A stretch of 64,000 nt of DNA from Henriciella sp. GTDB lineage: Bacteria > Pseudomonadota > Alphaproteobacteria > Caulobacterales > Hyphomonadaceae. The position numbers were made by a program, and so were the translations under genes. Below, one piece after another: positions 6,180-39,222 of this stretch. The notes under the pieces were generated by a model. The model made no database searches. It was not told the DNA's origin and saw only the letters and a list, made by a program, of their open reading frames with translations. The stretch spans positions 62,001 through 126,000 of the forward strand of contig NZ_JAPYRE010000004.1 of the NCBI RefSeq assembly GCF_029936995.1, given 5' to 3'. The number at the start of each line of letters is the position of its first letter. Positions within the stretch are counted from its first letter, which is position 1.

Positions 6180-6285
6180 GTTTGGCGACCCGTTCAAGAC
6201 ATTTTTCGACCCGGCCCGTGTATGGCTCCGCACGGTTGGTTTGGCCTATCTTACAGGCTGAACTTCCGGGGAGTCTCTGACCGAT

Positions 6286-7494: not shown

Positions 7495-7527
7495 AAAACC
7501 CTGAAACGATCTATCGGAAGAATCTCC

Positions 7528-10466: not shown

Positions 10467-10507
10467 AGTCGCTTCCGCAGTGGAATAACAGAACGGAGAC
10501 GCCTGCC

Positions 10508-11824: not shown

Positions 11825-11841
11825 TGGAGGTGTGTGCACGA

Positions 11842-15948: not shown

Positions 15949-15999
15949 TTCAACAATCCTTTTGGGAAGAGGTTCAAACTTGAGAGGCGAGCAGGCGCC

Positions 16000-18797: not shown

Positions 18798-18798
18798 G

Positions 18799-20172
18799 CT
18801 AGGCGACTCCGAGCTTTCTGGCGGTCTCCGTGAGCCCTGCCGAGGCTTTCTCGATGATTTCATCAATTTCCGCGTGAGTGATCGTAAGCGGTGGGCAGAT
18901 CACCATGGCCTGGCCTACAGCTCGCATGATGAGCCCCTTGTCGAGGCAGATGTCACGGCAGATATTTGCCGCGTTGTCCTCGGCAGTGAATGGTTCGCGT
19001 GTTTCACGGGACTTGACCAGCTGCAGACCAGCAATGAGGCCTGCCCCCCTGACTTCACCGATAATGCTGTGCTGCTCGCTGAGCTCCTTGAGACGTTCAC
19101 GAAGATAGGGGCCGACATCGTCCCTGACGCGCTCGACAAGTCCCTCGCGTTCAATGATTTCGATATTCGCATGAGCCACTGCACAGGCGACGGGGTGGCC
19201 AGAATAAGTGTAACCGTGAGGGATTGGTCCGCCTTCATTTATTGTCTCGAAGATGGCATCACTGAAGGCTACCGCTGATATAGGCAGGTAGCCTGAGGAC
19301 ATGCCCTTCGCCATCGGCATTATGTCCGGCTGGACGCCATAATACTGGCAGCCAAACCATTCACCCAGACGGCCAAATCCACAGATCACCTCGTCCGACA
19401 CGAGCAGGATGTCATGCTTACGGCAGATTTTCTGGACTTCCGGCCAGTAGGTGGACGGAGGGTCAATTACGCCGCCGGCCCCCTGCACGGGCTCACCGAT
19501 AAAGGCTGCGATGTTGTCCGCGCCGATTTCGAGGATTTTTTCTTCAAGGGCCTGTGCGGCCCGGAGGCCGAACTCTTCAGGCGTGAGGTTTCCTCCGTGA
19601 GCATACCAGTGGGGTTCCATGATGTGTTCGAAGCCCGGCAACGTGGATGATCCCATGTCATGCATGTGCTTCATACCGCCAAGGCTTGTCGCGGCGAGCG
19701 TGCTGCCGTGATAGCCGAGATTACGGCCGATGAACTTGTATTTCTCCGGCTTTCCACGGACATGCCAATAATGACGGGCCATACGGATGACGGTGTCATT
19801 TGCTTCCGAGCCGGAATTGGCAAAGAAGAAATGATTGAGATCACCAGGTGTGATCTCGGAAAGCTTCTGGGCCAGTTCGATCTGGCTGGGCGTAGAACTC
19901 TGGAAGAATGAGTTATAGAAAGGCAGCTCCGACATCTGCCGTGTAGCAGTATCGACCAGCTCCTGACGGCCATAGCCGACATTCACACACCACAGCCCGG
20001 CCATGCCGTCCAGGATCCTATTGCCATCGCTGTCATGGACATAGCATCCATCTGCACTGGTGATGACACGTGTTCCACGTTCTGCGAGCGTCTTGGGATC
20101 GCAGAAAGGGTGGATGTGATGCGAGGCGTCCAGTGCCTGCCATTGAGCTGTATTGCTTTGAGCGATCGCCAT
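18799..20172 (-). CDS. Class-III aminotransferase, omega-amine:pyruvate type (SpuC-like)
   Basis: This 457-residue PLP enzyme starts with MAIAQSNTAQWQALDASHHI. It shows RILDGMAGLWCVNVGYGR, FFFANSGSEANDTVIRMARH, AFIGEPVQGAGGVIDPP, LVSDEVICGFGRLGEWFG and the Schiff-base Lys in MPMAKGMSSGYLPISAV. These are features of the polyamine or beta-alanine:pyruvate transaminase branch, which moves a terminal amino group to pyruvate to give L-alanine and an aldehyde. It is the first gene of the operon with semialdehyde dehydrogenase, porin and alanine dehydrogenase. A LysR-type box lies 79 bases upstream of its start (20251-20267). Confidence 0.88.
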   Translation of the reverse strand: MAIAQSNTAQWQALDASHHIHPFCDPKTLAERGTRVITSADGCYVHDSDGNRILDGMAGLWCVNVGYGRQELVDTATRQMSELPFYNSFFQSSTPSQIELAQKLSEITPGDLNHFFFANSGSEANDTVIRMARHYWHVRGKPEKYKFIGRNLGYHGSTLAATSLGGMKHMHDMGSSTLPGFEHIMEPHWYAHGGNLTPEEFGLRAAQALEEKILEIGADNIAAFIGEPVQGAGGVIDPPSTYWPEVQKICRKHDILLVSDEVICGFGRLGEWFGCQYYGVQPDIMPMAKGMSSGYLPISAVAFSDAIFETINEGGPIPHGYTYSGHPVACAVAHANIEIIEREGLVERVRDDVGPYLRERLKELSEQHSIIGEVRGAGLIAGLQLVKSRETREPFTAEDNAANICRDICLDKGLIMRAVGQAMVICPPLTITHAEIDEIIEKASAGLTETARKLGVA

Positions 20173-20250
20173 TGCGTGTCCTTCCGAATGTTTGAGCGTA
20201 TCTTGCGCTTCGAAAGGACGGTCGGAGAAGATGACTAAAGCGATTGAAGT

Positions 20251-20267
20251 GGTGCGGTTTGAGCACC
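20251..20267. promoter_or_regulatory. LysR-type box, copy 1 (upstream of transaminase operon)
   Basis: GGTGCG-GTTTG-AGCACC matches the other three copies at 11 of 12 arm positions and keeps the 5-base spacer and T-N11-A spacing. It lies between the PaiB stop (20273) and the transaminase start (20172), where it could control the transaminase-gabD-porin-ald operon. Confidence 0.55.
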
Positions 20268-20272
20268 AATCC

Positions 20273-20953
20273 TTATTTTCGGACCTGTGCCTGATGATCA
20301 GTTCTGTATGCGCGCATATTCCGGGCGATCTCCCGGTCCTGTATGCTGCCGCGTTTTTCCAGAGCAGAGATGACGCGATCCTGGTCGGCGACTGATTGGG
20401 TCTGGCTCAGCTTGGTGACAGCGTCGATGCGCGTGACTGAAATCCGGAAAGACCGGATATGCGGTAGCAGGGTCTCGACCTTGCCCTCAGGGGCGTCTTC
20501 AAGCTTCCATGCGTTGCCATCGCCAATGGCTTCGCTTTGCGCGATTGTGACACGCATGATGTCCAGCTGGTCTTCGTCGTCATCAACAGGTTCCAGCACA
20601 CCACGCACCTGCGCGGCAATATAGTTCCAGGTCGGCACTGTGCGTTGATCTCTGTACCAGCTGGCCGAAACATAGGTGTCAGGACCGTGGAAAATGGCGA
20701 GAGCTTTCTGTCCTGAGTGGAGGGTGGCGGCGTGCGGGTTATGGCGTGCCATGTGGCCGATCAGTTGCATCTCTCCCGATGGGGTTTCCTGTAGGTACAT
20801 CGGGGCAGAAGTTGCGAAAGGCAGGTCATCCCTTGTGGTGACGAGCTGGCCGAAGGGGTAGGCATGAACGATTGAGACAGGTTCCGGGGCCATGTAGGGC
20901 TTGGGAATATACATTTTCCACGTATCGTGAATGTTCGTCATCGGCGTTTCCAT
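20273..20953 (-). CDS. PaiB-family FMN-binding protein (second copy)
   Basis: This 226-residue protein has all the PaiB hallmarks: MYIPKPY (near residue 14), LIGHMARHNPHA, AIFHGPDTYVSASWYRDQR and VPTWNYIAAQVRG. The family is annotated as FMN-binding negative transcriptional regulators (PaiB of Bacillus) but adopts a flavin-reductase-like split barrel, so an enzymatic role is possible. A shorter N-terminus beginning at the MYIPKPY Met is also plausible. It has its own LysR-type box 67 bases upstream (21020-21036), shared with the divergent serine hydrolase. Confidence 0.85.
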   Translation of the reverse strand: METPMTNIHDTWKMYIPKPYMAPEPVSIVHAYPFGQLVTTRDDLPFATSAPMYLQETPSGEMQLIGHMARHNPHAATLHSGQKALAIFHGPDTYVSASWYRDQRTVPTWNYIAAQVRGVLEPVDDDEDQLDIMRVTIAQSEAIGDGNAWKLEDAPEGKVETLLPHIRSFRISVTRIDAVTKLSQTQSVADQDRVISALEKRGSIQDREIARNMRAYRTDHQAQVRK

Positions 20954-21019
20954 TGTGTTGTTACCACTCCACTCTCCCTTGCCACTTTAGCTTTGTAAGG
21001 CGCGAAATATAGCCAAACC

Positions 21020-21036
21020 GGTGCGGCAGGCGCACC
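21020..21036. promoter_or_regulatory. LysR-type box, copy 2 (PaiB / serine hydrolase divergent region)
   Basis: GGTGCG-GCAGG-CGCACC is a perfect 6-base-arm palindrome with the T-N11-A spacing typical of LysR operators. It lies between the divergent PaiB (start 20953) and serine hydrolase (start 21144) genes. Confidence 0.65.
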
Positions 21037-21143
21037 GCCGGTCGTCTTCTTGGCACCTGAGAATTAGGGTTGGGCGCTGTACTGTTAGGAGAAGGACACC
21101 AGCGTCAAAGCCATGAGGCGGGCGCCAGCAAGGAGACAGGCTT

Positions 21144-22304
21144 GTGACAACACTCCAGCAGGCTTCTGAACAGAATAAACCGGAAATTGGTGATATTGTA
21201 ACCGCTTACGCGGGCAAGCTGATGCCGAATGTTCAGATGAAAACGTTCAGCAACACCGATCAGATTTTTCCGGTGCGAACGATTGCCAGAGGAGGTCCAG
21301 TGTCGCCTATCCCGTCGTCTCCAAACTGGATGAGTGATTTTCCCATCCCTTCGAACGGCAAAGTCTATGACCTGTACGACTATGTTTCACAAAACCGTCT
21401 GGTTGGCCTGCTTGCGATCAAGGATGGAGAGGTCGTGTACGAGTATCACGATCAGGGTATCACGTCCGATACACGCTGGATGTCGATGTCCATGGCAAAG
21501 TCGGTTTCGACAACTTTGGTCGGGGCGGCTATCAAGGATGGGTACATTGGCGGCGTAGATGACCAACTGGTGGAGTACCTGCCTGAACTGAATGGTAGCG
21601 GCTATGATGGGGTATCGATCCGGCACCTGTTGCAGATGACCTCTGGCGTGAAATGGGATGATACCCATACCGTGGAGAGCTCTGAGCGCCGGACCATGCT
21701 CGACCTGCAAGTCGCCCAGAAGCCGGGTGAGATCATGAATTTCATGGCCTCCTTGCCGCGCATTGCAGAACCCGGGCAGGTCTGGAACTACAGTACTGGC
21801 GAAACACATGTGGTAGGCGCGCTGGTCAGGGCAGCCACAGGCAAATGGCTGTCCGATTATTGCTCGGAAAGGATGTGGTCCCGGCTTGGCATGCAGGATG
21901 ATGGGGCATGGTGGCTGGAATCCCCTGGCGGGCTGGAAGTTGCTGGCAGTGGTATCTGCGCGACCTTGCATGATTATGCGCGTCTCGGCCTGTTTGCGCT
22001 TAATGAAGGCGTTATCGATGGAGAGCCCGTCGTGCCGGAGGGGTGGTTCAGGGAAGCGACTGAGCCGCGCATGGCCGGGAATGACCCATTGAACTACGGC
22101 TACATGTGGTGGCCTGTACCTGACCGTGATGGCAATTTTTCAGAACGGGCCTTCAGTGCACGCGGGATTTTCGGCCAGTACATCTATATCAATCCGACGC
22201 GGCGTATCGTGCTCACGGTCATGAGCTGCCGGTCGAAACCCAAATTTTCTGAGACCATTCCCGATAACGACTTTTTCAATGCCGCAGTAGATGCGCTCGG
22301 TTAG
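21144..22304 (+). CDS. Serine hydrolase of the beta-lactamase class C / NylB-like family
   Basis: This 386-residue protein starts with GTG at 21144, with AGGAGA eight bases upstream. It has the S-x-x-K catalytic motif in RWMSMSMAKSVSTTLVG (near residue 118), VSIRHLLQMTSGVKWDD, and WNYSTGETHVVGALV, where Tyr is the second catalytic motif. No signal peptide is visible, so it is probably cytoplasmic. The length and S-M-A-K resemble 6-aminohexanoate-dimer hydrolases (about 390 residues) and related amidases/esterases. Next to an omega-transaminase and a semialdehyde dehydrogenase, an amide hydrolase releasing an omega-amino acid makes sense, but this is inference. Its stop overlaps that of the convergent LysR gene by four bases. 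Confidence 0.82.
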   Translation: MTTLQQASEQNKPEIGDIVTAYAGKLMPNVQMKTFSNTDQIFPVRTIARGGPVSPIPSSPNWMSDFPIPSNGKVYDLYDYVSQNRLVGLLAIKDGEVVYEYHDQGITSDTRWMSMSMAKSVSTTLVGAAIKDGYIGGVDDQLVEYLPELNGSGYDGVSIRHLLQMTSGVKWDDTHTVESSERRTMLDLQVAQKPGEIMNFMASLPRIAEPGQVWNYSTGETHVVGALVRAATGKWLSDYCSERMWSRLGMQDDGAWWLESPGGLEVAGSGICATLHDYARLGLFALNEGVIDGEPVVPEGWFREATEPRMAGNDPLNYGYMWWPVPDRDGNFSERAFSARGIFGQYIYINPTRRIVLTVMSCRSKPKFSETIPDNDFFNAAVDALG

Positions 22305-23350
22305 GGAGCCGGTTTGTATTCCGGGGTGTCCTTGGCGATCGTGTTGGTCAGCCAGACCCTGAATTTGCGCAGGCTGGGCTCATCCCAGCGGTCCCGCCGC
22401 GCGATCAGGACATAGTTTCCAAGCCTGAGAGGGAAGGCGGGATTATCCTTGCCGATCCAGACAAGGTCGCCCCGTTCCAGATGTTTGGAAGCAATCAGGG
22501 GGTTGCTCAGAGCAATACCGCTACCGTGCCGTGAGGCATCGCTCGTCAGGTTTCCCTGCCAGAGAAGAGGGCCTCTCAGCCCATTGCCGCAATCAACTCC
22601 CAAGGATGTCAGCCAGATTTCCCAGGTGCGTGTCGTGTTCTCGTGCAGAAGCTGGTGGTTGAGGAGCTCAGCCGGTGTCGTGATCTCGGGCTTGTCTTCT
22701 AGATATTCGGGGCTTGCGACCGGGATGATCGGCGATTGTGCGATGACCTGGCTGCGCATGTTTGGCGGCAGGTCTTCCAACTCTTCATAGGAGGCCCAGT
22801 AGCGAATATCCACGTTGGCTTCATGTGAGAGGAAATCAGGTGGTGTGACAGACGGTTTCAACTCGATTTCGACATCCTTGTTGACCCGCTCGAGTGAGGC
22901 GAGTCTCCGGGAAAGCCACTGCTGGGCAAACCCCGGCGTGCTCCAGATCAGTAATTGGTGATGCATGCCCTGGTTAAGCAGGTCGAGGGTGGCGTGGGCC
23001 ACTGTGTCCAGGGCTGTGGAGATCGATTTGTGATAATCCTTGCCGGCCTCTGTGAGCACCAGGCCTGTAGGGACACGCTCGACAAGCGTCACGCCGACCC
23101 AGTCTTCAAGGGTGCGCAGGTGGCGACTGAGTACGGCATGGTCCCGGTCGAGCCATTTGGCGGCCTTGCGGACCCCGCCAAGACGGGCAATCGCATCAAA
23201 GGCCCGCAAGCCTTCAAAGGGGGGGAGGGCCTTGCGGACAGGCGGCTGCTGGCCTGACTGTGATGGAACGTCCTTAAGGTCGACCATGCTCATTATTCCG
23301 TCGTCACTGAACTGTTGCATAATTGACGGTCCGTCTTGTTGTGAAGTCAA
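22301..23350 (-). CDS. LysR-family transcriptional regulator
   Basis: This protein has up to 349 residues. The winged helix-turn-helix begins at LPPFEGLRAFDAIARLGGVR (near residue 43) and continues with KAAKWLDRDHAVLSRHLRTL and LTEAGKDYHKSI, a GcvA-like pattern; a periplasmic-binding-fold effector domain follows. The first 40 residues are unusual for the family, and later Met codons (residues 11, 20 and 22) are alternative starts. It is flanked by the serine hydrolase and the PepSY gene and lies amid four copies of a GGTGCG-N5-CGCACC palindrome, so it is the best candidate to bind them. Confidence 0.88.
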   Translation of the reverse strand: MTSQQDGPSIMQQFSDDGIMSMVDLKDVPSQSGQQPPVRKALPPFEGLRAFDAIARLGGVRKAAKWLDRDHAVLSRHLRTLEDWVGVTLVERVPTGLVLTEAGKDYHKSISTALDTVAHATLDLLNQGMHHQLLIWSTPGFAQQWLSRRLASLERVNKDVEIELKPSVTPPDFLSHEANVDIRYWASYEELEDLPPNMRSQVIAQSPIIPVASPEYLEDKPEITTPAELLNHQLLHENTTRTWEIWLTSLGVDCGNGLRGPLLWQGNLTSDASRHGSGIALSNPLIASKHLERGDLVWIGKDNPAFPLRLGNYVLIARRDRWDEPSLRKFRVWLTNTIAKDTPEYKPAP

Positions 23351-23416
23351 GCTCTGCAGGGGTTTTCGTGCAGCGTTTCAGCAGCTCAGGCCGGCCATGG
23401 GGCAGGGGAAGCGTAA

Positions 23417-24490
23417 TCAGGGTGATGGTGAGGCAGCGCCGCTACGCTGGCGTTTGTTCATCCAAAGGCGGAGGCCGAGATACATCATAACCAACAGCCA
23501 GATGCCTACGGCGGTATTCACCAGTCTTCCAACCAAACCACCAATCTGTCCTGTATGGACAGGATAGAGTGCCTCGGCGATACGCGCATTGAAGGCGCTA
23601 TTGGCGGCATCGTGAGTAAGCAGGACCTCACCATCCAACCCCACGAAGACGCGTGTTGCACCATAAAGCCGTGGCATCTCTCCCGGAGCGTTCAGGCGGA
23701 ACTTGTACCAGGTGCTGTCATCGCTTGGCAGATTGATCGCCACGAGGGTTGAGCCCGGGTATTCAGCCAATGCGGTTTCAATGGCGGTAGCAAGGCTGAT
23801 TGTGGTTCCGGATGAATAGTCCTGCCTCTCTGGGGAAGCTTCTTCAACGCCGAGCGTGTTCTCCACGAAGTCGGCCTGATTCAGAGCGATGCCTGCCGAA
23901 ATCACGACAAGTGCAGGTAGTAAGCCCCAAAAACCGATGCGCCAGTGCCAACCTGATAGCGTAATAGCTGATGGAGCTTTCCTCGTTTTTGTGAATCCTT
24001 TCAGGCGTTTGCGTCTGGGCCACCCCATCCATAGCCCGAGGCAGATATTGGAGAGCAGGAGACAGCCGGAGATGAAGAAGATGATATATCCCGTGTTTCC
24101 GAGCATGAGTGATTTGTGAAACTGGGTCAGGGTTTCGAAAATGGCGCCATCGGAAAAGAGCTGTTCATCCGACCTGTCGCGTATAAATGTACCTGCGCCA
24201 TCTATTCGTACCGTGCGGTGCTCTCCATCCCGGGTCAGGTAGGCATCATATTGGCCTTCACGTCCGCCTGAAATCCAGATGGAGGAAATATTGTCGCCAT
24301 TTGCCTGTAGCTCGGTGACTGCTTTCTCGAGTGCTTCCGCGTTTGTGGCAGTTGCATCCTGACCGAGGAAAAAATCATCGATATCAGCGCGAAACCCTAT
24401 GGCGAGACCGGATGCGGCCTGCAGAATCCAGAGAGCAACAAATGCCAGACTGATCCATCTGTGGATCACGAGGAGTCGAGGAAAACGCAT
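23417..24490 (-). CDS. PepSY-associated transmembrane protein (second copy)
   Basis: This 357-residue inner-membrane protein has its first helix at WISLAFVALWILQAASGLAI. Helices follow FHKSLMLGNTGY and AITLSGWHWRIGFWGLL, and the last helix follows LYPVHTGQIGGLVGRLVNTA, ending in a basic tail. The His motifs FHKSL and PVHTGQIGG mark the PepSY_TM family. Members accompany TBDRs and may support reduction or energisation of uptake. It is encoded divergently from the second TolB/amidohydrolase, with a LysR-type box between them (24584-24600). Confidence 0.83.
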   Translation of the reverse strand: MRFPRLLVIHRWISLAFVALWILQAASGLAIGFRADIDDFFLGQDATATNAEALEKAVTELQANGDNISSIWISGGREGQYDAYLTRDGEHRTVRIDGAGTFIRDRSDEQLFSDGAIFETLTQFHKSLMLGNTGYIIFFISGCLLLSNICLGLWMGWPRRKRLKGFTKTRKAPSAITLSGWHWRIGFWGLLPALVVISAGIALNQADFVENTLGVEEASPERQDYSSGTTISLATAIETALAEYPGSTLVAINLPSDDSTWYKFRLNAPGEMPRLYGATRVFVGLDGEVLLTHDAANSAFNARIAEALYPVHTGQIGGLVGRLVNTAVGIWLLVMMYLGLRLWMNKRQRSGAASPSP

Positions 24491-24583
24491 AGGGCCTCCA
24501 GTGTGCAGATACAGATTATTTGCGCTGGAGCGATTATCGCAGGAACCCGGATTTGCCTGACAGATGCGAAGCGTGCGGCATGT

Positions 24584-24600
24584 GGTGCGGATAACGCACC
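24584..24600. promoter_or_regulatory. LysR-type box, copy 3 (PepSY / amidohydrolase divergent region)
   Basis: GGTGCG-GATAA-CGCACC is a perfect 6-base-arm palindrome with T-N11-A spacing. It lies 94 bases upstream of the PepSY start (24490) and 138 bases upstream of the amidohydrolase ATG (24738). Confidence 0.65.
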
Positions 24601-24737
24601 GAAACTTGCGCCCTAAGCGCCTTCGCCAGTGCTATTGGGACATGATGAAGTCATAAAAATGCAAACTGGCCCAGGCCCGTTTTCACGGTGGGCGGGCTGA
24701 AGCATGTCGAAATCATAACCGCTGGGAGGTGGCATTC

Positions 24738-27700
24738 ATGAACTTCAGGTCTCTGGCAGCAGTTGGATTTCGGAACAGTATTCATCGCCGGTCATGGCCC
24801 GGGCGCTCTTGCATGGGATGTCACCGATACTGGTCAGCCCTACGAGACTGTTGAGTTCACCCTGACAGAGGGAACCTGGATCAGCCTGGATGTCAGCCCG
24901 GACGGCGAGACTATCGTGTTCGACTTGCTGGGAGACATTTATGCCATGCCATCAACTGGCGGGGCGGCACGTCTGGTGCATGGCGGGCCAGCCATGCAGC
25001 GCTCCCCGCAATACAGTCCTGACGGCTCGAAAATTGCCTACATCAGCGATGTGGACGGAGCTGATAACATCTGGACCTCCCGTCCGGATGGGGGTGAAGC
25101 CATCCAGGTGTCATCCGAGACCTCTCTTGCTGTGGTCGAGCCCGCATGGAGCCCTGATGGCGAGACACTGGCCGCCGCACGCATGTTTGACACAGCTGAC
25201 CGCCTGCACGCCTCTGAACTGGTCACATATCCGGCAAGAGGCGGGCCAGGTGAGCAGATCGTGGCCATGCCGGAGACGGGTGAGAACGTACATGATGCGG
25301 TTTTCTCGCCGGATGGTGAGGCGCTTTACTTCGTAGAGAAAGTAACCGGGCCGCATCCGTCAGGGATCTATATCGACGCCAATCACAAGCATTTCGCGAT
25401 CCGCCGGAAGGATATTGAGACCGGGAATATCGAGACTGTTGTAGGCGGCTTTGGTGGGGCCACATCGCCTTCGATTTCACCGTCCGGGGACAAAATGGCT
25501 TTCGTCCGCAGGGTGAGGGACGAGACGATGCTGTTTGTCTATGATTTCGCCTCGAAAACGCAAACCCCCATTTTTGATGGGTTGGACCGGGACGGCCAGG
25601 CGGATTTTCTGGGCCAGGGTAACTATTATCCACGTTTTTCCTGGTTTCCTGACGGGGAGGACCTTGCCGTTTGGGCGGGGGGCAAGATTCTCCGCATCGG
25701 TACAGAAACGGGTGAAACAAGCGAGATCCCGTTCAAGCTGACCTCCCGACACCAGCTGACTAAGCCCGTCCGGCTGACGCAAGACCTTGATCCGGACATG
25801 GTGCAGGTCAAAGCGGTGTCGAAGATTACCGTTTCGCCAGACCGTGAAACGCTGGCTTTCACAGCGCTTGGCGGTATCTGGCAACAGGATGTTGCTGGAG
25901 GAGAGCCTGCAAAACTGACTGACATGCATGCCTCACAATCGGAGGCAACCTATTCACCCGATGGTGCACAGCTTGCTTTTGTAGAATGGGACGATGTCAG
26001 CGGTGGTGAGCTGAAGGTCAGAAAGGCAGACGGCGAGGTTGTCAGCCTTTTCCAAACTGCGGGCATTGTTCGTGAGCCTGTCTACTCGCCGGATGGCTCG
26101 AAGATCCTTTTCCGGATCGCGGAAGGTGATGACTGTCTGGGGGGGACACAAGGCGGAGGCTAGTCTTTACTGGTTACCTGCAGAGGGCGGCACACCGAGA
26201 AGCCTGGGTGTTTCTGGTGGCTATCCAAGGTTTTCTCCCGATGGAACGCGTGTCTTCTTCACGACCGAGGGGTATGCCAGCGGCACAATGGTGACGACGC
26301 TGGAAAGTGTAGCGTTGGACGGGCAAGATCATAAAACGCATCTGCGTACACAGAGCTCCGATACGAATGAGCTGAAGCTAAGCCCTGATCTGAAGTGGAT
26401 CGCGTACCGTCATTACCAGCATTATTACGCCGCTCCGTTTGATGCAGGCGCAGAAGAGTCTGTCCTAGATGCTGGCGAAGGCCGGCAGCTGAAAAGTATT
26501 GGTGGCTATGAACTGACCTGGGAAAAAAATTCCAGCGGTGTCTACTGGGCATTTGGCCCTGATATCTACAAGGCAAGCATTGGCGATGTTGCGGCGGCAC
26601 CGGAAATATTCACACAGGTAGACCTGCGATTCCGGGCAGATGTCCCCGCAGGCCTGACAGCTTTTGTTGGTGGTCGTGTCATCACGATGGATGGTGACAA
26701 GATTATCGAAAACGGCACCGTAGTTGTCGATGGTAACCGGATCGTCTCGGTCGGCCCGGCCAATGAAGTCGACGTGCCTGCGGAGGCGCATATTGTTGAC
26801 GCGTCAGGCAAGACGATCATGCCGGGCCTGATCGACATGCATGGCCATCTTGATACCTGCTACTACGCCTCGTCCGGACTGCTGCCCCAGCAGCAGGGCT
26901 CCCGGTATGCGGCGCTCGCCTTCGGTGTGACGACCAACTATGACCCCTACACATCGGAGCTGCCGACCTATGGTGCCGCGGAGATGGTTCAGGCGGGGAG
27001 CATGGTTGGACCACGGTCCATTGATGTCGGCTATGTCGCTTATGGGCGTAAGCAGAAGTACGATCCGGTCTATGTTCCGATTGAGACATATGACGATGCC
27101 GAGACTTTCATGGACCGTAAAGTCGCGCTCGGCGGCACGATCATCAAGAGCTACCGTCAGGTTCAGCGAAAGCAGCGCCAGATGCTGAACAAGGCCGGGC
27201 GCGAGGCCGGCGTGATGGTCGATGTTGAAGGCGAGAGCCACTACTTCAATGCGATTTCGGCCGTCCTCGATGGCAATGTAAACCTCCAGCACAATGTGCC
27301 GGTTGAGAACCTTTATGACGATTTCATCCAGCTTCTCGCGCGGTCCGAGGTAGCGCATACACCGACGCTGATTGTCCTGTTCGGGGAGCTGATGGGCGAG
27401 AACTATCTGTTCCAGTCATCGCGCCTCTGGGAAGACCCGCGGGTGAATGACTTTGTCCAGACCACAACCAGCTCCTACAGTCCGCTCGCCGTCCCGGTCG
27501 GTGCCCCGCCATATGTGCGTGGCATGACGAACATAGAGGCGGTCGACGAGCTCTGGGACATAGGGTTTCGTGCGGCGGCCCGGTCAATGAAGGCGCTCAA
27601 CGATGCGGGCGGCCTTGTGAATGCAGGTTCCCATGGGCAGGTGTTCGGACTTGCCATGCACTGGGAGCTGCAACTGCTGTCCGAGGGCGGCATGAGCAAT

Positions 27701-27994
27701 CTGGACGTCCTCAGAGCTGGAACGATCAACGGGGCAACCACTCTCGGGCTTGAGGGACAGATTGGTTCTATCGAAGAGGGCAAGCTGGCCGACATTATCG
27801 TTCTCGAGGGCAATCCGCTCGACGATATCCGTAATACTGAAACTGTTTCCCGGACCATGGTGAATGGCCGTCTGTACGACACGTACAGCATGGACGAGGT
27901 CGGCAATCATGATCGCCCGCGCCGTCCATTTTACTGGGAAGTCAACGATGTGCCCAAGCATATCAACTGGAAGCCCGCATGGGGCGATGAATGA
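24738..27994 (+). pseudogene. TolB-propeller/amidohydrolase fusion, broken by two +1 frameshifts (second copy)
   Basis: A good ribosome site (GGGAGG at 24724-24729) precedes the ATG at 24738, which starts a signal peptide (MNFRSLAAV). The peptide continues only after a frame change near 24754-24757 (FGTVFIAGHGPGALA). The second open segment runs to a TAG at 26161, and the rest of the protein continues in another frame through a run of seven G at 26149-26155 (removing one G restores DCLGGHKAEASLYW). The repaired product would be about 1084 residues: TolB/PD40 repeats (ISLDVSPDGETIVFDLLGD), then an amidohydrolase domain with MPGLIDMHGHLD, IIKSYRQVQ and NAGSHGQVFG. It is a homologue of 497-3820. 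All segments are otherwise open, so sequencing error or very recent loss are both possible. Confidence 0.8.
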
Positions 27995-28031
27995 CCTGGT
28001 GTCCGGCACCGTCTAGTGAAGGACTTTCTGA

Positions 28032-29468
28032 ATGAGCGATGTATCCAGAACCGACACTCAGGATCTACCTGTTGGAGAGATATCGGACGATAAGAAAGAC
28101 GCGGTTTTCCTCGGCCATCCGAAGGGGCTTGCGTATATCGTTTTCACTGAGGCCTGGGAGCGGTTTTCCTTCTATGGGATGCAGGCCCTGCTTATCCTGT
28201 ACATGGCAACGCATCTTTTCCTGCCTGAGAACTCAGGCAATGTGGCCGTTTTCGAGCCGTTCCGGAGTTTCTTCGAGTTCATCTTTGGCCCGCTAAGCGT
28301 GCAGGCGCTGGCCTCGCAGGTTTTCGGTGTCTATGTCGGGCTCGTCTATTTTGCGCCGGTTCTGGGGGGCTTGATCGGGGACAGGGTGCTCGGGCGCCGC
28401 AAGGCAGTCCTTTCTGGTGCGCTGTTCATGGCGGCGGGTCACTTCCTGATGGCCTTTGAAGCAAGCTTTCTTTTTGCGCTTCTCATGCTTGTGCTCGGGT
28501 CTGGCCTACTGAAGGGCAATCTGGCTGCGCAAGTCGGTGCTCTCTATGCCAAGTCGGATAAACGCCGGGACTCTGGTTACTCCATTTATGTCTTCAGCAT
28601 TAATGTTGGCGCTTCGGTTGCGCCGCTGGTGTGCGGGACGCTGGGTGAAGTCTATGGCTGGCACTACGGGTTCGGTGCTGCGGGTATCGGGATGCTTATC
28701 GGGCTTGTCGTTTACCTGATGGGGCACTCGCACCTGCCGGTCGATACGATCACGGCCAAGGATGAGCGCCCGAAGCTGCAAAAAGGGGATGGTGTCGTCA
28801 TTCTCTCGATACTGGCCATGCTGGCACTTACATCGCTTTACTGGGCTGCGCAAAGCCAGGTCTGGAATGCTTATCCACTCTGGCTAAGGACCGATGTCGA
28901 TCGCTCGATTTTCGGAATGAACATCCCGGTCACATGGTTCCAGTCTCTTGATTCAACAGCCGTCCTGATCCTCGCGCCATTGGTGTTGTGGTACTGGCGG
29001 GTCCAGTCGCGGCGCAAAGCAGAGCCGAGTGACCTTATCAAGCTGGCAATTGGATGCGGTGTTTTCGCTAGTGCCTTCGTTCTGCTTGGGCTTGGAGACC
29101 TCCTGTCAGGCGGGGAAGCAGTTGCGCTAGTATGGCCCGTCATCTTCCACTTTATCTGTGGTGTCGGTTTTCTCTATGTCGGTCCGATTGCGCTGGCGCT
29201 GACATCCCGTGCAGCCCCGGAGTCGGTTAACTCAATGATGGTGGGCTCATATTACCTGGCGATCTTCTTTGGCGGGCTATTCAGTGGCTGGCTCGCGCGG
29301 TTTTACGAACAGATGTCGAGTGCGAACTTCTGGCTGATGCATGCTGCGATCGTCGGTATTGCCGCAGTGCTGATCATTGGGCTTCGGCCTGTCCTCACTC
29401 GTTTGATGAAACTGGACGCAGAGGATGCCACACCTCCTGCAGAGCCGCTTCAGCAGGAGACACAATAG
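28032..29468 (+). CDS. Proton-dependent oligopeptide transporter (POT/PTR family)
   Basis: This is a 478-residue polytopic inner-membrane protein. The POT signature is clear: FTEAWERFSFYGMQALLILY near residue 37 (the ExxERF motif and Tyr), GGLIGDRVLGRRKAVLSGAL near residue 114, and GSGLLKGNLAAQVGALY. The family takes up di- and tripeptides, and sometimes other amides, with protons. It lies 37 bases after the amidohydrolase and overlaps the next gene, so it probably imports the small products released in the periplasm. Confidence 0.9.
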   Translation: MSDVSRTDTQDLPVGEISDDKKDAVFLGHPKGLAYIVFTEAWERFSFYGMQALLILYMATHLFLPENSGNVAVFEPFRSFFEFIFGPLSVQALASQVFGVYVGLVYFAPVLGGLIGDRVLGRRKAVLSGALFMAAGHFLMAFEASFLFALLMLVLGSGLLKGNLAAQVGALYAKSDKRRDSGYSIYVFSINVGASVAPLVCGTLGEVYGWHYGFGAAGIGMLIGLVVYLMGHSHLPVDTITAKDERPKLQKGDGVVILSILAMLALTSLYWAAQSQVWNAYPLWLRTDVDRSIFGMNIPVTWFQSLDSTAVLILAPLVLWYWRVQSRRKAEPSDLIKLAIGCGVFASAFVLLGLGDLLSGGEAVALVWPVIFHFICGVGFLYVGPIALALTSRAAPESVNSMMVGSYYLAIFFGGLFSGWLARFYEQMSSANFWLMHAAIVGIAAVLIIGLRPVLTRLMKLDAEDATPPAEPLQQETQ

Positions 29469-30394
29469 TGCGAAACCACCTTTCTGCGGCAGTTTCACTG
29501 CCAGTCCTTATCATGGCGGCATCATGTGCGGTGCCTGCCGTATCACCGGGCCAGGATGAGGTAAGCGGCCTTATGGTCTGTGCTAAACCAGAAGTCGCAC
29601 ATACCTGTGATTATATCGGCATGGCCGGACTACAAAAGGCGGTCGACGAGGCAATACCGGGCGCGCTCATCCATCTGCGCGAGGGCCGTTATATGGCCAG
29701 TGCCTATCGTGACGTGCCCTTTCAGGATCTTGTTGTGCGCGGTGCGCTGGTCATCGAGGGCAAGGAGTTGTCCCTGATTGGAGAGCCTGGTGCTGTTCTG
29801 GCAGGTAGCGAGGATTACCCTGTCAGCGCGATTGTCATAAATGACTCTACCGTGAAGATTTCAGGACTTGGCATCTCGGATTTTACCTACCTGGAGCCGG
29901 AAGATGATATTTATGATGGCCATGGCATTTTTACGATCGCAAGCAATGTCGAACTGGACTCAGTGCGCATAGCTGGTGTTGACAAGATGGCTGTTACGGG
30001 CCGCGAAACAGGACATGTCACTGCACGTAACCTGACCATCGCGCAGTCACATCTTGGTGTATGGCTGGAAGAGACGGCACATCTTAATCTGACGGAAAGC
30101 CTTATCACGGGAAGCGAGTCTGCTGCGATAGCTGCCTATATGGAGGCGACCGTCCAGGTTTCTGGCAGTCTGATCGAGGGTAATCAGGATGATGGCCTCT
30201 ATACGGAAGACAACGCCTACATTCGCAGCGCCGACACAGATATCGTGAGTAACTCCCCATACGGTGCCCGGGCGGCTGGCCATAGCCAGATCCTGCTTTG
30301 CGGCGGTGAGATGACAGGCAATGACGCGGATACTGGCGAAGAAGATGCCGGCCGTGTCCTGCTGGGGGATGCGCAGGCGTGTTCGGGGCGCTAA
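29468..30394 (+). CDS. Right-handed parallel beta-helix lipoprotein of unknown function
   Basis: This 308-residue protein starts with GTG at 29468, overlapping the TAG of the POT gene by one base. The signal ends in IMAASC, a plausible lipobox. From about residue 50 it shows a pectate-lyase-like fold entry (GLQKAVDEAIPGALIHLREG) and then repeating short hydrophobic rungs (ARNLTIAQSHLGVWLEET, LTESLITGSESAAIAAYME, VSGSLIEGNQDDGLYTEDN), typical of right-handed beta-helix/NosD-like proteins. These often bind or cleave polysaccharides. No catalytic site is identifiable, so its role in this uptake operon is open. Confidence 0.75.
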   Translation: MRNHLSAAVSLPVLIMAASCAVPAVSPGQDEVSGLMVCAKPEVAHTCDYIGMAGLQKAVDEAIPGALIHLREGRYMASAYRDVPFQDLVVRGALVIEGKELSLIGEPGAVLAGSEDYPVSAIVINDSTVKISGLGISDFTYLEPEDDIYDGHGIFTIASNVELDSVRIAGVDKMAVTGRETGHVTARNLTIAQSHLGVWLEETAHLNLTESLITGSESAAIAAYMEATVQVSGSLIEGNQDDGLYTEDNAYIRSADTDIVSNSPYGARAAGHSQILLCGGEMTGNDADTGEEDAGRVLLGDAQACSGR

Positions 30395-30449
30395 AATTGC
30401 ACGCCGGCATCTGAGCCCGGTGCAGTGAGAACGGACACTGTCTGGAAGG

Positions 30450-30478
30450 CCGGGTCGCTGCGTGCGACCCGGTTTTTT
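30450..30478 (+). terminator. Rho-independent terminator after the amidohydrolase-POT-beta-helix operon
   Basis: Stem CCGGGTCGC / GCGACCCGG (9 perfect pairs, loop TGCGT) is followed by six T. Confidence 0.88.
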
Positions 30479-30492
30479 ATATGCCTGGTTAC

Positions 30493-30523
30493 AAAAAGAC
30501 CCGGTCCCTTCTGAGAGACCGGG
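30493..30523 (-). terminator. Rho-independent terminator of the convergent TBDR gene
   Basis: On the minus strand a CCCGGTC / GACCGGG stem with a 10-base loop is followed by TCTTTTT. It lies back-to-back with the plus-strand terminator, insulating the two convergent units. Confidence 0.75.
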
Positions 30524-30608
30524 CTTGATGTGAGTGAGGGAGGAGGTCGAATGACGGCCAGAAAACTAGAGACTTTCCGGCCGTCTCGGTTCTGGGGACC
30601 TGTGTCCC

Positions 30609-32744
30609 CTAGAAACTATAAGCCGCACTGACGCCGATAACCCGCGGTTGTGTACGGTTGGCGTTTGCCCAGCCCTGATACGGATCGATCGATTTGTTCT
30701 CATCCGTGATATTCGTGGCATAGACTTCGAGATCGACATTGCCGACCTGCACACCGGCACGGGCATTCAGAAGGTTCAGGGCATCCGAACTCTGGGGCAG
30801 GGCCGAGGGCAGGAAGCTGGAGCGGTCGATGTACGTGACTTCGTCGCGATGGTTGAAACCAACACGGGCAAAGCCGGGATAGTTGGGGGCCCAGTCAAAG
30901 TCATAGTTGATACCGAGCGTGTAGCTCAGCTCTGGTGTATAATCGGTTGGATCACCGACATTGTTGACCTGGTCTGTATCGGCTGTCTCGACAATTTCGC
31001 TGTCGAGATAGGCGGCATTGGCCGACAGGGTCAGGCCCGATACTGGCTGATAGGCCAGTCCTGCTTCGACGCCTTTAACCTCGACCTTGCCGATATTGCT
31101 CGATTCCCCGAGTAAGGCGCCGTTCACTTCAGTGAGACGGCGGCGGACCATGTCCTTATATTCGGTGAAAAAGACAGCGACATCATACTGGAAATTGCTG
31201 GTATTGCCCTTTGTGCCGAGCTCGTAAGTCAGGATGTTTTCCGGATCGTACGGCTCGACCGGTTCGCGGTTGAAACCGCCGCTCCGGAAACCGGACCCTG
31301 CGCTCGCATAGATGGTCGCAGCCTGAGCGTACTTGTAAGTCAGGTAAACACGGGGGTCGACCGACTCGAAAGTTGCCGACTGTTCAGTGCCTGTTCCGGG
31401 AGCATCCTCGATCAGGCTTGTCTGTTCATCGTGGAAGTAACGCAGACCAGCCCCCAGGGTAAGCCTGTCGGTTACGTCGTATGAGCCGTCCGCGAACAGG
31501 GAGTAGGAGTCGGATGTCGAGCCCGAGAAGTAGTATAGATCATCAATGAGGATGCCGCCGCCCTGGTATAGATCGCCGTTTGCGGCGTAGGCGTATTCGT
31601 AGTCTTCCGTGAATGAGCGTTCCCCGGTGCTGTAGAATGCGCCCAGCGTCCATGCAAACCGGTCGCCCGCGTCTGACAGGCGAAGTTCCTGGGAGAACTG
31701 TTCGGCATCAATAAAGCGATCATTATTACCTTCAACAATCCCGAAGGAGTAGTTTCCTTCGCGGGGGATATAGGTGAAGGGGTATTGGTGGTCGTGTTCG
31801 ATCTGTGTTGTCGACGAGGTTAGTTCTGCAAATCCGAAATCGTAGTTCAGTTCGAGATTATAGATATCGAAGTCGAACTTCTTCGGGATCATGACCTTGC
31901 TGCGGTCCGGGCCGACATCGACTGTCCGGTCGGGTTCTTCATAGCCCATGCCGAGCTCTGTTTCGGCACGGTGAATCTGGACCATGGCCTTGGCGGAAAA
32001 GTTGCTTGTCGGTTCCCAGAGGATCTTGCCACGGGCATTGACAAGCTCTGTTCCATTGCCGTCCTCGATACCGGCTTCAGGTTGGTCGATCCAGCCTCCA
32101 CCATTCTCCAGACCGAGCGCAAAACGCACTGCCAGCTTGTCCTCGATAAGTGGTGTATTGAAGACGAGTTCGCCTTTCTGGCCAGTCTCTCCTTCCGACA
32201 CGGTATAGACTTCACCCTTGACCTTTCCCTCGACCCTATCGAGCACGGGGTCCGCTGTAATAAAGCGGATGACGCCCCCGGCAGCTCCTTGGCCATAAAG
32301 AGTGCCCTGTGGGCCTTTCAGGACTTCCACGCGCTCCAAATCCAGTGGGACCGGGCTTAGCTGGTTATAGCCGCTCAAGGAGAGCGGTGCTTCGTCGAGA
32401 TACATGCCGACGAGGGCCCCCGAACCAGACTGGTTGGCAAGGCCGCGGATGAAGATCGTGTAGCTTCCGGGCCCGTCTTCGCGCATGGTCAGCCCGGGCA
32501 CGTTGAAAGACAGATCCTGTATATTGTCTACGCCGAGCTTGGAGAGATTGTCCCCAGAGATGGACTCTATCGCCATTGGCACATCAATCAGGCGCTGCTC
32601 GCGTTTTTGCGCGGTGACCATGATAGCGGACTGAACCAGCGCTTCATCTTCTGCGGGTGGTTCGGTCGATTGCGCGTTGGCAGCAGCAATATTCATCATT
32701 GCGACAAGAGCGCTACCGGTTGTCAGAAGGTACTTGCGTGTCAT
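30609..32744 (-). CDS. TonB-dependent outer-membrane receptor
   Basis: This 711-residue protein has a signal peptide (MTRKYLLTTGSALVAMMNIA, then ANAQ), a TonB-box-like AIMVTAQKREQRLIDVPMAI, plug motifs DLERVEVLKGPQGTLYGQGA and GVIRFITADP, and the C-terminus RVIGVSAAYSF with terminal Phe. This sphingomonad-type subfamily is not siderophore-specific and takes up varied organic nutrients. A LysR-type box lies 83 bases upstream (32827-32843), so it is likely the outer-membrane entry for the substrate of the neighbouring LysR regulon. Confidence 0.9.
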   Translation of the reverse strand: MTRKYLLTTGSALVAMMNIAAANAQSTEPPAEDEALVQSAIMVTAQKREQRLIDVPMAIESISGDNLSKLGVDNIQDLSFNVPGLTMREDGPGSYTIFIRGLANQSGSGALVGMYLDEAPLSLSGYNQLSPVPLDLERVEVLKGPQGTLYGQGAAGGVIRFITADPVLDRVEGKVKGEVYTVSEGETGQKGELVFNTPLIEDKLAVRFALGLENGGGWIDQPEAGIEDGNGTELVNARGKILWEPTSNFSAKAMVQIHRAETELGMGYEEPDRTVDVGPDRSKVMIPKKFDFDIYNLELNYDFGFAELTSSTTQIEHDHQYPFTYIPREGNYSFGIVEGNNDRFIDAEQFSQELRLSDAGDRFAWTLGAFYSTGERSFTEDYEYAYAANGDLYQGGGILIDDLYYFSGSTSDSYSLFADGSYDVTDRLTLGAGLRYFHDEQTSLIEDAPGTGTEQSATFESVDPRVYLTYKYAQAATIYASAGSGFRSGGFNREPVEPYDPENILTYELGTKGNTSNFQYDVAVFFTEYKDMVRRRLTEVNGALLGESSNIGKVEVKGVEAGLAYQPVSGLTLSANAAYLDSEIVETADTDQVNNVGDPTDYTPELSYTLGINYDFDWAPNYPGFARVGFNHRDEVTYIDRSSFLPSALPQSSDALNLLNARAGVQVGNVDLEVYATNITDENKSIDPYQGWANANRTQPRVIGVSAAYSF

Positions 32745-32826
32745 GTTTATGGCCCCTCGCTTTTTTGTACTTCAGCATGAAGAAGGACAAACAATCGTTT
32801 GGGCAGATGCCAAAAACGAACGCGGT

Positions 32827-32843
32827 GGTGCGAATGGCGCACC
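32827..32843. promoter_or_regulatory. LysR-type box, copy 4 (upstream of TBDR)
   Basis: GGTGCG-AATGG-CGCACC is a perfect 6-base-arm palindrome, identical in arms and spacing to copies 2 and 3, located between the CoA-transferase stop (32926) and the TBDR start (32744). Confidence 0.65.
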
Positions 32844-32925
32844 GCAACGTTCCAAGGGACATCACCAAGTCAGGCAGACAGATTCTTCATTGGATTAAGG
32901 ACAGCGTTCTGAATGTTTCTGCCTG

Positions 32926-34173
32926 TCACTCGTCAGACTTCTTATGTGCGGTACTGATGATGCGCTCGGCATTTAGTCGCGTGACCTCGTTCGGGCAATA
33001 ATTGAGAACAGTTTGCAAAACATCATCAGTATGTTCTCCCAAGAGGGGGGCGGCGGACTGGTGTGTGGCGGGAGTTTCACTGAGGCGAACCGGGCATGCG
33101 ACGCCGGGCACTTTTCCCAGACCTGCATGATCAAGCGTGATTTCCGTGTTACGGGCCTGGACATGCGGGTCTGCGAACACATCGGCTATTTTGTTGACCG
33201 GACCAGCAGGAACATCGCTGTTCTCAAGCAGGTCCAGCCAATGCCGGGTCGGCTGGCTGATGAGTTTCTCGTGAAGGATGGCAGTCAAGACATCCCGATT
33301 TGCCACGCGGGCAGCATTGGTCGAGAAACGAGAATCATCAGCGAGGCCACTTAGACCGATGCAGTCGCATAGTTTCTGGAACTGCCTGTCATTACCGACA
33401 GCCAGGACCACATGGCCGTCTGCGGTTTCGTAGACATCATATGGACATATGCTGGGATGGGCATTGCCCATGCGTGTGGGGTTCTTGCCGGTCGCAAGGT
33501 AGCCCTGTGACTGGTTCGCCATTGCAGCGACAAGACAATCGAGCAATGAAACATCGATCGCCTGACCTTCACCGGTATTTGTGCGGTGGAGCAAAGCCGC
33601 CTGAATGGCATTTGCCGCGTAAAGACCGGTCAGAATATCGACGAGTGCGACACCGACTTTCATAGGTCCAGCGCCGGGCTGGCCATCCGGAACACCGGTA
33701 ATGCTCATCAGCCCGCCCATGGCCTGTATCAACAGGTCATAGCCTGGCAGGCTCGCATATGGTCCGGTCTGGCCGAAGCCTGTTATCGAGCAATAGACCA
33801 GTCGGGGATTGATCCTGCGAAGACTGTTGGCATCGAGTCCGTATTTTGCGAGCGACCCGGTCTTGAAATTCTCGACCAGCACGTCTGATGACGCCGCCAA
33901 ATCGCGCACGACCTTCTGACCAGCCGGCGAGGAGATGTCGATGCAGATAGACTTTTTGTTGCGGTTTGCACTCAGGAAATATGAGGCTTCCCGTGTCCCC
34001 GGCTCTTCACCTTCCTGATAGGGCGGGCTCCAGCTGCGTGTGTCATCACCACCTTCGGGGCGTTCGACCTTGATGATCTCTGCACCTAGATCTCCCAACA
34101 GCTGTGTCGCCCAAGGGCCTGCGAGTACCCGGCTCAGATCGAGGATACGGATATTTTCGAGAGCACGTGCCAT
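32926..34173 (-). CDS. CaiB/BaiF-family CoA transferase
   Basis: This 415-residue class-III CoA transferase has ILDLSRVLAGPWATQLLGDL at the N-terminus, then GAEIIKVERPEGGDDTRSW, a catalytic-Asp region in NRNKKSICIDISSPAGQKVV or the following segment, YCSITGFGQTGPYASLPGYD and GGLMSITGVPDGQPGAGPM. Members transfer CoA between carboxylic acids. It follows a glutaryl-CoA-dehydrogenase-like gene by one base; that neighbour suggests succinyl-CoA:glutarate (or similar dicarboxylate) transfer, feeding the acid made by the semialdehyde dehydrogenase into CoA metabolism. The acid is inferred from context only. Confidence 0.87.
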   Translation of the reverse strand: MARALENIRILDLSRVLAGPWATQLLGDLGAEIIKVERPEGGDDTRSWSPPYQEGEEPGTREASYFLSANRNKKSICIDISSPAGQKVVRDLAASSDVLVENFKTGSLAKYGLDANSLRRINPRLVYCSITGFGQTGPYASLPGYDLLIQAMGGLMSITGVPDGQPGAGPMKVGVALVDILTGLYAANAIQAALLHRTNTGEGQAIDVSLLDCLVAAMANQSQGYLATGKNPTRMGNAHPSICPYDVYETADGHVVLAVGNDRQFQKLCDCIGLSGLADDSRFSTNAARVANRDVLTAILHEKLISQPTRHWLDLLENSDVPAGPVNKIADVFADPHVQARNTEITLDHAGLGKVPGVACPVRLSETPATHQSAAPLLGEHTDDVLQTVLNYCPNEVTRLNAERIISTAHKKSDE

Positions 34174-34174: not shown

Positions 34175-35185
34175 TCAGGTAAACGCGGCTAGTCCGGTCT
34201 GTGCGCGGCCCAGGATCAGCGCGTGAATGTCGTGCGTGCCTTCATAGGTATTTACGGCTTCGAGATTACACATATGGCGCATGACGTGGAACTCGTCGGA
34301 GACGCCGTTGCCGCCGTGCATGTCGCGGGCCATGCGTGCGATGTCGAGGGCTTTGCCTGTGCTGTTGCGTTTGATCAGTGAGATCATTTCCGGGGTAGCG
34401 GAGCTGTTATCCAGAAGACGTCCGACTTTCAGGCATGACTGGAGGCCAATCGAGATTTCAGTTTGCATGTCTGCCAACTTGCGCTGAATAAGCTGGTTGG
34501 CAGCCAGAGGCCGACCGAACTGCGTTCGGTCCATCGTATAACCACGCGCAGCCTTCCAGCAGGCTCTCGCTGCGCCAAGTGCGCCCCAGGCAATTCCGAA
34601 CCTGGCCTTGTTGAGACAGCCAAAGGGACCGGACAATCCCGAAGCGCCCGGGAGAAGGTTTTCTTCCGGAACGAAAACATCATTCATGACGATTTCGCCT
34701 GTCGCGGAAGCCCTCAGAGCGAGTTTGCCCTTGATTTCAGGCGTAGAGAGGCCTTCCATTCCACGCTCAAGAACGAACCCGCGGATAGAACCATCCAGTT
34801 TTGCCCAGACGACCATCACGTCTGCGACAGGGCTGTTGGTAATCCATATCTTGGCCCCCGAAAGCCGGTAGCCTCCATCAACTTTGGTGGCGCGGGTGGA
34901 CATGTTTCCCGGGTCGGAACCGTGATCCGGCTCAGTGAGGCCGAAGCAGCCAATGAGATCTCCAGATATAAGGCCGGGAAGCCAGCGCTCACGCTGCGCC
35001 TCATTTCCGTAGGCGTGAATTGGATGGATGACGAGAGAGGACTGAACGCTGAGAGCGGACCTATAGCCTGAGTCGACGGCTTCCACCTCGTGCGATACCA
35101 AGCCATACGAGACATGGCTGACGCCTGCGCCGCCATATTCGGAAACGGTTGGCCCCAGTAGGCCAAGCGACCCCATTTCTTTCAT
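34175..35185 (-). CDS. Glutaryl-CoA dehydrogenase-like acyl-CoA dehydrogenase, N-terminally truncated
   Basis: The readable gene starts at ATG 35183-35185 and gives 336 residues, while GcdH enzymes have about 390. Diagnostic segments are [73 protein letters not shown] and [20 protein letters not shown], which carries the catalytic Glu. Upstream the same frame stays open to 35314 and encodes recognisable family sequence ([20 protein letters not shown], then [16 protein letters not shown]), but no ATG, GTG or TTG lies in it and a TGA precedes it. The true start region therefore seems lost through a deletion that joined it to the LuxR-type gene. Activity is doubtful. Confidence 0.8.
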
Positions 35186-35255
35186 TATCTGGCGATCAAA
35201 GGTTCCATTGCGATTGGCCTCGACAATGCCCGGCAGAAGACGGTTCTGGGCGAAA

Positions 35256-35909: not shown

Positions 35910-36110
35910 GCACAAGTTCCCCTTTCTTGATCCATGCCCCTGGTCAATTGCTTTTTGGGCGGGGCTTCATGAGGGAAAACGAAAAGAAGGGGGGGATCCG
36001 GGCATGATGGTCCGGTTTTTCTGTCTTCGGTTTGCTTGATTTCCGTGTGGGCGCTGTTACCCCTCACTGCAGAGTACGGAACGGCTCCGGCCGCCGGGGA
36101 CAGGTTTCAC

Positions 36111-39045: not shown

Positions 39046-39222
39046 CGCAGATCCCCCCAAGCATCCTGTCGAACATGCGATGGTGGATGATCTGAATGCA
39101 CACAGCAAGGGGGAGGCGGGGGCTCGCTTCGCCAGTAAACGAGCAAGTCAGACCTATTCGGGGCTAATGGCTATAGGCTGTTCGCAATAGGCAGTTCTCA
39201 TTATCAATCTTGAGAGGTTCAT

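Follow-up and report, generated by a model that had tools for sequence, protein, structure and literature searches.

A conserved palindrome with a one-sided second element marks a predicted LysR regulon for amide use in Hyphomonadaceae

We analyzed a 64-kb stretch of the genome of Henriciella sp. (Hyphomonadaceae; assembly of 3,400,460 bases in 20 contigs). This stretch is hereafter the window, and all coordinates refer to its positions unless a genome label is given. Four copies of a palindrome lie in a gene cluster of the window that also encodes a LysR-type regulator. Operator 1 (20251–20267, reverse strand) lies 87 bp upstream of a transaminase start, and operator 4 (32827–32843, reverse strand) lies 91 bp upstream of the start of a TonB-dependent receptor gene. 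Operator 2 (21020–21036) separates divergent genes for a PaiB-like protein and a serine hydrolase, while operator 3 (24584–24600) separates the PepSY–LysR genes from a divergent TolB-amidohydrolase gene. A sequence-only reading of this DNA had described four copies of GGTGCG-N5-CGCACC, and our scan bears this out: operators 2, 3, and 4 are exact, and operator 1 has one mismatch. That reading saw no copy in the left half, and a scan of the whole window with at most one mismatch gives only these four. Its placement of all copies between genes also stands, with none of the 17 bases of any copy inside a listed gene (the intergenic share of the window is ~8% by the gene list used for this check), as does the T-N11-A geometry. 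The 12-base form was right in part: the outer arms are kept, but the inner G and C vary, leaving GGTGC-N7-GCACC as the conserved core, which operator 1 carries. A three-mismatch scan of the window gave 43 matches against 48.7 expected, no excess over chance, and was not used.

The LysR gene (22301–23287, reverse strand, with an ATG chosen as start) encodes the predicted operator binder. Its protein exceeds the Pfam cut-offs for HTH_1 at the N terminus (60.1 bits) and LysR_substrate at the C terminus (64.1 bits). It is, as first read, the sole LysR gene of the window: no other LysR domains appear in the 48 of 52 listed open reading frames (ORFs) scanned with Pfam. Among the models listed, the best match is GcvA (NCBIfam PRK11139), at 188.5 bits, which does not reach the cut-off of 288. 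Orthologs with 78–83% identity occur in four further family genomes (G047, G070, G062, and G011), with more distant ones in G032 (59%) and in Pacificimonas pallii of the order Sphingomonadales (55%). At E 1e-75, orthologs were found in 6 of 105 family genomes, our own included, in 6 of 398 order genomes, and in 1 of 385 class genomes, namely our own; at most five candidates were scored per genome in the order and class searches. Scanning named genomes for the LysR locus, by a method that detects close relatives only, gave four loci. The motif RDHAV[LV]SRHLR in the helix-turn-helix region is common to seven orthologs and missing in a 40% homolog from G007. Near this homolog there is no full-core copy, and the single one-mismatch copy is intragenic.

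Random scatter of the palindrome over the genome, which would speak against a regulon, is not what we find. We count 24 sites with at most one mismatch, of which just three are exact, and all three lie in the cluster. By contrast, 20 of the 21 one-mismatch sites lie outside it. Given these 20 sites and the 36 possible one-mismatch forms, we estimate by hand that ~0.6 exact sites per genome would arise by chance. The palindrome also tracks the LysR gene in relatives. All 12 exact copies in five genomes (our own and the four with orthologs of at least 78% identity) lie within 18 kb of it, and a reversed control pattern matches only once across all five. Adding G032 gives six genomes with the regulator, in which the core occurs 52 times, 27 of them in the cluster (one of these coding). 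Genome-wide counts of core versus reversed control are 9/3, 11/5, 8/7, 8/6, 10/10, and 6/1 for our own genome (G000), G047, G070, G062, G011, and G032, respectively; the core is thus above the control in five genomes and equal in one. On this comparative evidence, the predicted pairing of palindrome and LysR gene holds.

Promoter alignments reveal a second element, which is new from this analysis and was not in the sequence-only reading. It is a block 16 bp past the right arm that reads GCATCT, GCACCT, GCGCCT, GCCCCT, or TCATCT (KCNYCT). In the window, operator 1 has TCATCT (20229–20234, reverse strand) at this spacing on the side of the transaminase operon. Operator 2 is accompanied by GCACCT toward the serine hydrolase (21053–21058, forward strand) and GCGCCT toward PaiB (20998–21003, reverse strand). 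Operator 3 likewise has GCATCT toward PepSY–LysR (24562–24567, reverse strand) and GCGCCT toward the TolB-amidohydrolase (24617–24622, forward strand), and operator 4 has GCATCT toward the TonB receptor (32805–32810, reverse strand).

We examined 68 palindrome sides from seven genome regions. At offset 16, 34 of them carry [GT]CN[CT]CT, while any other offset from 6 to 31 gives 0 to 4. In five genomes, KCNYCT accompanies 32 of the 37 palindrome sides directed at a start codon, compared with 0 of 17 other sides; our own genome alone gives 6/6 and 0/2. Four of the five start-facing misses are GCATCA before a second TolB-amidohydrolase, and the fifth is GCGCCG before PaiB in G011. This count left out G032, Pacificimonas, a copy inside the POT gene of G047 (by the distance rule), and the site before the S58 gene of G011, whose arms fell outside the filter and which does carry the +16 element. 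When dyad and second element are combined, 35 of 39 matches in the six genomes with the regulator fall in the cluster (G000 6/7, G047 7/7, G070 7/7, G062 7/8, G011 6/6, and G032 2/4). The same extended pattern gives 44 matches in the 99 other family genomes, 0 to 3 each. The 25 core copies that lie away from the cluster all lack a match to the extended pattern. The layout, with its polarity, is the one expected of LysR activators, which pair a recognition site with an activation site.

Operators are retained at orthologous promoters. The core or an arm variant is kept in relatives upstream of the transaminase operon and the TonB receptor, between PaiB and the serine hydrolase, and between PepSY–LysR and the TolB-amidohydrolase. 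Relatives have additional cores upstream of an S58 gene and of the second TolB-amidohydrolase. In G047, G070, and G062, the S58 gene that follows the core operator itself precedes genes for glutaryl-coenzyme A (CoA) dehydrogenase and a CoA-transferase. Arms are conserved in the alignments, while spacers and most flanking bases vary. Altered arms are commonest in G011, G032, and Pacificimonas, and operator copies were partly found at orthologous promoters even in the latter, which belongs to another order.

One core palindrome, at C16:66756 of G047, lies within the POT coding sequence and has no second element; G070 and G062 have one-mismatch forms at the same position. It is probably a by-product of the protein sequence.

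The genes next to these operators suggest what the regulon might do. The operon behind operator 1 begins with a class III omega-aminotransferase of the putrescine/omega-amino acid:pyruvate type (18799–20172, reverse strand), assigned by profile and structure-chain matches; it matches putrescine and omega-transaminases and passes PRK07480. The same kinds of match place the next gene (17325–18866, reverse strand) with semialdehyde dehydrogenases of the succinate-semialdehyde dehydrogenase kind, 4 bits below the TIGR01780 cut-off. Its listed ORF start overlaps the transaminase, and the true start is probably further in. Pfam identifies a Porin_5 outer-membrane porin (16000–17325, reverse strand) and an alanine dehydrogenase family protein (14860–15948, reverse strand), which would regenerate pyruvate.

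The serine hydrolase (21144–22304, forward strand) has a beta-lactamase fold by Pfam and structure-chain alignments. Its closest solved chains are 8rlj (E 1.4e-92, residues 12–385), Lsa45 8dc1 (E 5.4e-28), and NylB-type enzymes (E from 1.5e-27). By hand count in the alignment, it keeps the Ser-x-x-Lys and Tyr residues, while the column of NylB Tyr170 holds His; we presume these residues to have catalytic roles. Because Tyr170 is replaced, we call the protein NylB-like and not NylB. The TolB (PD40) beta-propeller plus amidohydrolase gene (24738–27994, forward strand) is followed by a POT oligopeptide:H+ symporter (28032–29468, forward strand; profile search) and a right-handed beta-helix protein (29468–30394, forward strand; Pfam). 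A literature search on POT transport of 5-aminopentanoate found no paper, and this idea is not used as evidence. Profile search also identifies the TonB-dependent receptor (30609–32744, reverse strand), and Pfam the PepSY_TM membrane protein (23417–24490, reverse strand) and the PaiB-like FMN_bind_2 protein (20273–20953, reverse strand), to which we assign no role. The S58 protein of G070 scores 84.4 bits for S58 and is closest to NylC enzymes (E 7.8e-57), with an NTT self-cleavage site (Asn/Thr) aligned with that of NylC. Genes of similar length occupy this position in G047, G062, and G011; the NylC match was searched for the G070 protein only.

Beyond the receptor lie a type III CoA-transferase (32926–34173, reverse strand), with CaiB/BaiF 4ed9 (E 1.5e-121) as the closest solved chain and SUGCT 9br6 (E 3.3e-106) as the second, and a glutaryl-CoA dehydrogenase (34175–35290, reverse strand). 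The G070 dehydrogenase aligns with glutaryl-CoA dehydrogenases and is identical to human 1sir at Arg94, Ser98, and Glu370 (hand count), whose roles in the human enzyme we take as given; the window copy keeps the Arg/Ser stretch. At E 1e-80, the enzyme is present in 6/6 genomes with the regulator versus 0/4 tested others. The loci of this enzyme in 29 other Alphaproteobacteria (30 returned, minus our own) had no LysR or CoA-transferase match within the available flank of at most 1.5 kb, and thus yielded no further operators. A C5 end, indicated by the operators beside this enzyme and the CoA-transferase in relatives, favors amides of 5-aminovalerate or cadaverine over C6 units. The use of amides and omega-amino acids proposed in the sequence-only reading is supported by the gene families, and may be narrowed, less surely, to a C5 route through the operator-adjoining genes of relatives. 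The pathway, which that reading did not recognize from known ones, is not wholly unfamiliar: its last steps resemble the glutarate branch by which 5-aminovalerate is catabolized.

We consider it likely that the LysR protein recognizes all four palindromes and acts as an activator of an amide import and degradation regulon. Each promoter would combine a strong dyad, GGTGC-N7-GCACC, with a weaker half-site, KCNYCT, 16 bp past the right arm on the gene side. A tetramer of the regulator would occupy the dyad and, in the presence of inducer (perhaps glutarate or the omega-amino acid), also grip the half-site and recruit RNA polymerase. Operators 2 and 3 each serve a divergent pair of genes, so that the four dyads would together drive six transcripts. 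Among these would be PepSY–LysR, presumably co-transcribed across the 129 bp that separate the two genes. The TonB receptor, porin, and POT symporter would import the amide substrate, which the TolB-amidohydrolase and NylB-like hydrolase, and the NylC-like hydrolase in relatives, would cleave. The omega-amino acid or diamine set free would then be oxidized by the transaminase, with pyruvate as acceptor renewed by alanine dehydrogenase, and by the semialdehyde dehydrogenase. The product would be a dicarboxylate, most likely glutarate, which relatives would carry on to crotonyl-CoA with their CoA-transferase and glutaryl-CoA dehydrogenase.

Several observations weigh against this reading. In some genomes, the core is overall little or no commoner than its reversed control (10 vs 10 in G011, 8 vs 7 in G070, and 8 vs 6 in G062); in such genomes only its position, not its frequency, is special. 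The +16 element was derived from the same genomes in which it was counted, and several target starts were set by eye afterward. For this reason, we rest the argument on the peak in spacing and on the polarity rather than on absolute counts. The relatives' genomes are not independent of one another, while the six nonhomologous promoter sides of our own genome are. G032 and Pacificimonas have weaker sites, some of them with no evident second element: Pacificimonas has ACATCT at +16 of the transaminase site and GCATCT at +17 of the receptor site, with none evident at its other sites. Glutaryl-CoA dehydrogenases are also widespread in the class, occurring in 209 of 385 genomes.

The copy in our own genome also counts against the reading. 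Operator 3 is exact, as first described, but the TolB-amidohydrolase downstream of it is not one open frame: it is broken near 24.75 kb (the 5′ end) and 26.12 kb, while the frame is intact in G047, G070, G062, and G011. In G047, the whole cluster is free of frame breaks. The glutaryl-CoA dehydrogenase lacks its first 20 codons and an operator. At ~35290, it is joined to the end of an unrelated ORF (35256–35915) with no Pfam match, in what looks like a deletion scar. A search for the S58 gene and its FGE-like neighbor, which covered a 104-kb stretch, gave no match. The frame breaks may be sequencing errors. With the dehydrogenase decayed, the S58 match missing, and the TolB-amidohydrolase broken, this strain may be unable to run the pathway in full. 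The window's copy of the cluster appears partly decayed, and the strain may have lost part of the function while retaining the operators.

Among alternatives, the same regulon might serve C6 units (6-aminohexanoate or nylon-6 oligomers) or mixed chain lengths, with adipate and not glutarate as the end product. The named enzymes to which the NylB-like and NylC-like proteins are closest do act on 6-aminohexanoate oligomers, and an omega-aminotransferase of P. jessenii deaminates 6-aminohexanoate with pyruvate, according to PMC6061476. However, the alignment places the acyl-CoA dehydrogenase with true glutaryl-CoA dehydrogenases, whose three residues named above it shares, and the His at Tyr170 also argues against C6 units. 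We regard this alternative as unlikely.

A substrate of another kind, a cadaverine-based hydroxamate siderophore (of the ferrioxamine or bisucaberin kind) taken up and degraded for carbon, nitrogen, or iron, is kept only as a rival and seems quite improbable. The TonB receptor resembles siderophore receptors, at 146 bits and so below the curated cut-off of 223.5, and the transaminase and dehydrogenase matches fit C5 diamine chemistry. The PepSY_TM protein matches 7abw, which we take to be the ferrioxamine reductase FoxB. This match is weak (E 3.7e-4), however, no enzyme for the N-hydroxy group was recognized, and control by the LysR protein also speaks against a siderophore. Marine bacterial degradation of peptidic siderophores is in print, judging by a title.

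It is very improbable that another regulator encoded elsewhere, such as a TetR or GntR protein, binds the dyads and that the LysR gene is a mere neighbor. Dyads of such a length are used by other regulator families as well, and exact copies occur somewhere in 39 of the 105 family genomes, including 34 without a close LysR ortholog. Clustered copies, however, are found only where the ortholog is present: none of the 100 remaining family genomes has two exact copies within 20 kb on one contig. The T-N11-A geometry is typical of LysR proteins, as is a half-site lying two helical turns away on one side, and no other regulator gene was recognized within 14860–32744 among the ORFs scanned. A chance origin of the copies is ruled out by the genome scan and by 400 dinucleotide shuffles of the 13 kb from 20001 to 33000, which gave a mean of 0.0025 exact copies and never three or more.

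Other features of the window lie outside this set. A second group of genes at 497–14486 (TolB-amidohydrolase, TonB receptor, PepSY, esterase, Na:alanine symporter, porin, and two amidohydrolases) has no palindrome; in G011, a set resembling it adjoins the cluster. Beside the cluster, at 36036–39108, an extracytoplasmic function (ECF) sigma factor gene lies opposite a Ser/Thr kinase with TPR repeats. Genes for a Sigma-70/ECF sigma factor, a FecR-like protein, and a TonB receptor are consecutive at 51813–56871.

Beyond the predicted LysR regulon, a fuller picture is possible, though on balance doubtful. It would be a dedicated marine regulon, patchy in Hyphomonadaceae and one sphingomonad, that imports and mineralizes a natural nylon-5-like oligoamide, with a GcdR-like LysR protein sensing the end product glutarate. 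The oligoamide would be made of 5-aminovalerate or cadaverine amides, possibly hydroxamate siderophores. Targeted searches of one paper collection found no description of the regulon among paper titles. If this fuller picture is true, the hydrolases would show nylonase folds in a natural, regulated setting. The analysis itself gives a fully specified predicted operator (dyad, 16-bp gap, half-site, and polarity) for an uncharacterized LysR protein, with a bounded gene set and testable inducers. It also places NylB-like and NylC-like hydrolases in a natural gene set, predicted to be regulated, that leads from uptake to crotonyl-CoA, which bears on the marine role of nylon-oligomer hydrolases.

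The cluster shares several traits with known systems. Like the nyl enzymes, it combines a NylB-fold hydrolase, a NylC-like S58 hydrolase (in relatives), an omega-transaminase, and a semialdehyde dehydrogenase, the last two presumably comparable to NylD- and NylE-type steps. Its hydrolase is, however, distant in sequence from NylB (E about 1e-25), and the cluster differs in having enzymes for a C5 end, uptake genes of its own, and a single set of LysR operators. The closest solved relative of the serine hydrolase is PIB-1 (8rlj), called a carbapenem-hydrolyzing beta-lactamase in a title cited by PMC13269358, whereas here the gene sits in an amide and omega-amino-acid set. The caprolactam cluster of P. 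jessenii, as passages of PMC6061476 describe it, also leads by a pyruvate-dependent omega-aminotransferase and a semialdehyde dehydrogenase to a dicarboxylate and its CoA-dependent degradation. It differs in its ATP-dependent caprolactamase, its CsiR/IclR regulators, and adipate rather than glutarate.

The regulatory layout most resembles that of GcdR from P. putida KT2440, a tetramer of the LysR family that activates gcdH and gcoT and has glutarate for its effector. GcdR protects two regions, one containing AGTGA-N7-TCACT (PMC6667623); two conserved elements, known from sequence, correspond here. Both dyads have 5-N7-5 arms and T-N11-A geometry, although the arm bases differ. A glutaryl-CoA dehydrogenase and a CoA-transferase are GcdR targets; genes of these two kinds are predicted targets here in relatives, where operators lie beside them, while in the window no operator precedes them. 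The set here adds a receptor, porin, POT symporter, hydrolases, transaminase, and aldehyde dehydrogenase. The likeness to GcdR drawn here concerns operator geometry and the kinds of gene beside the operators.

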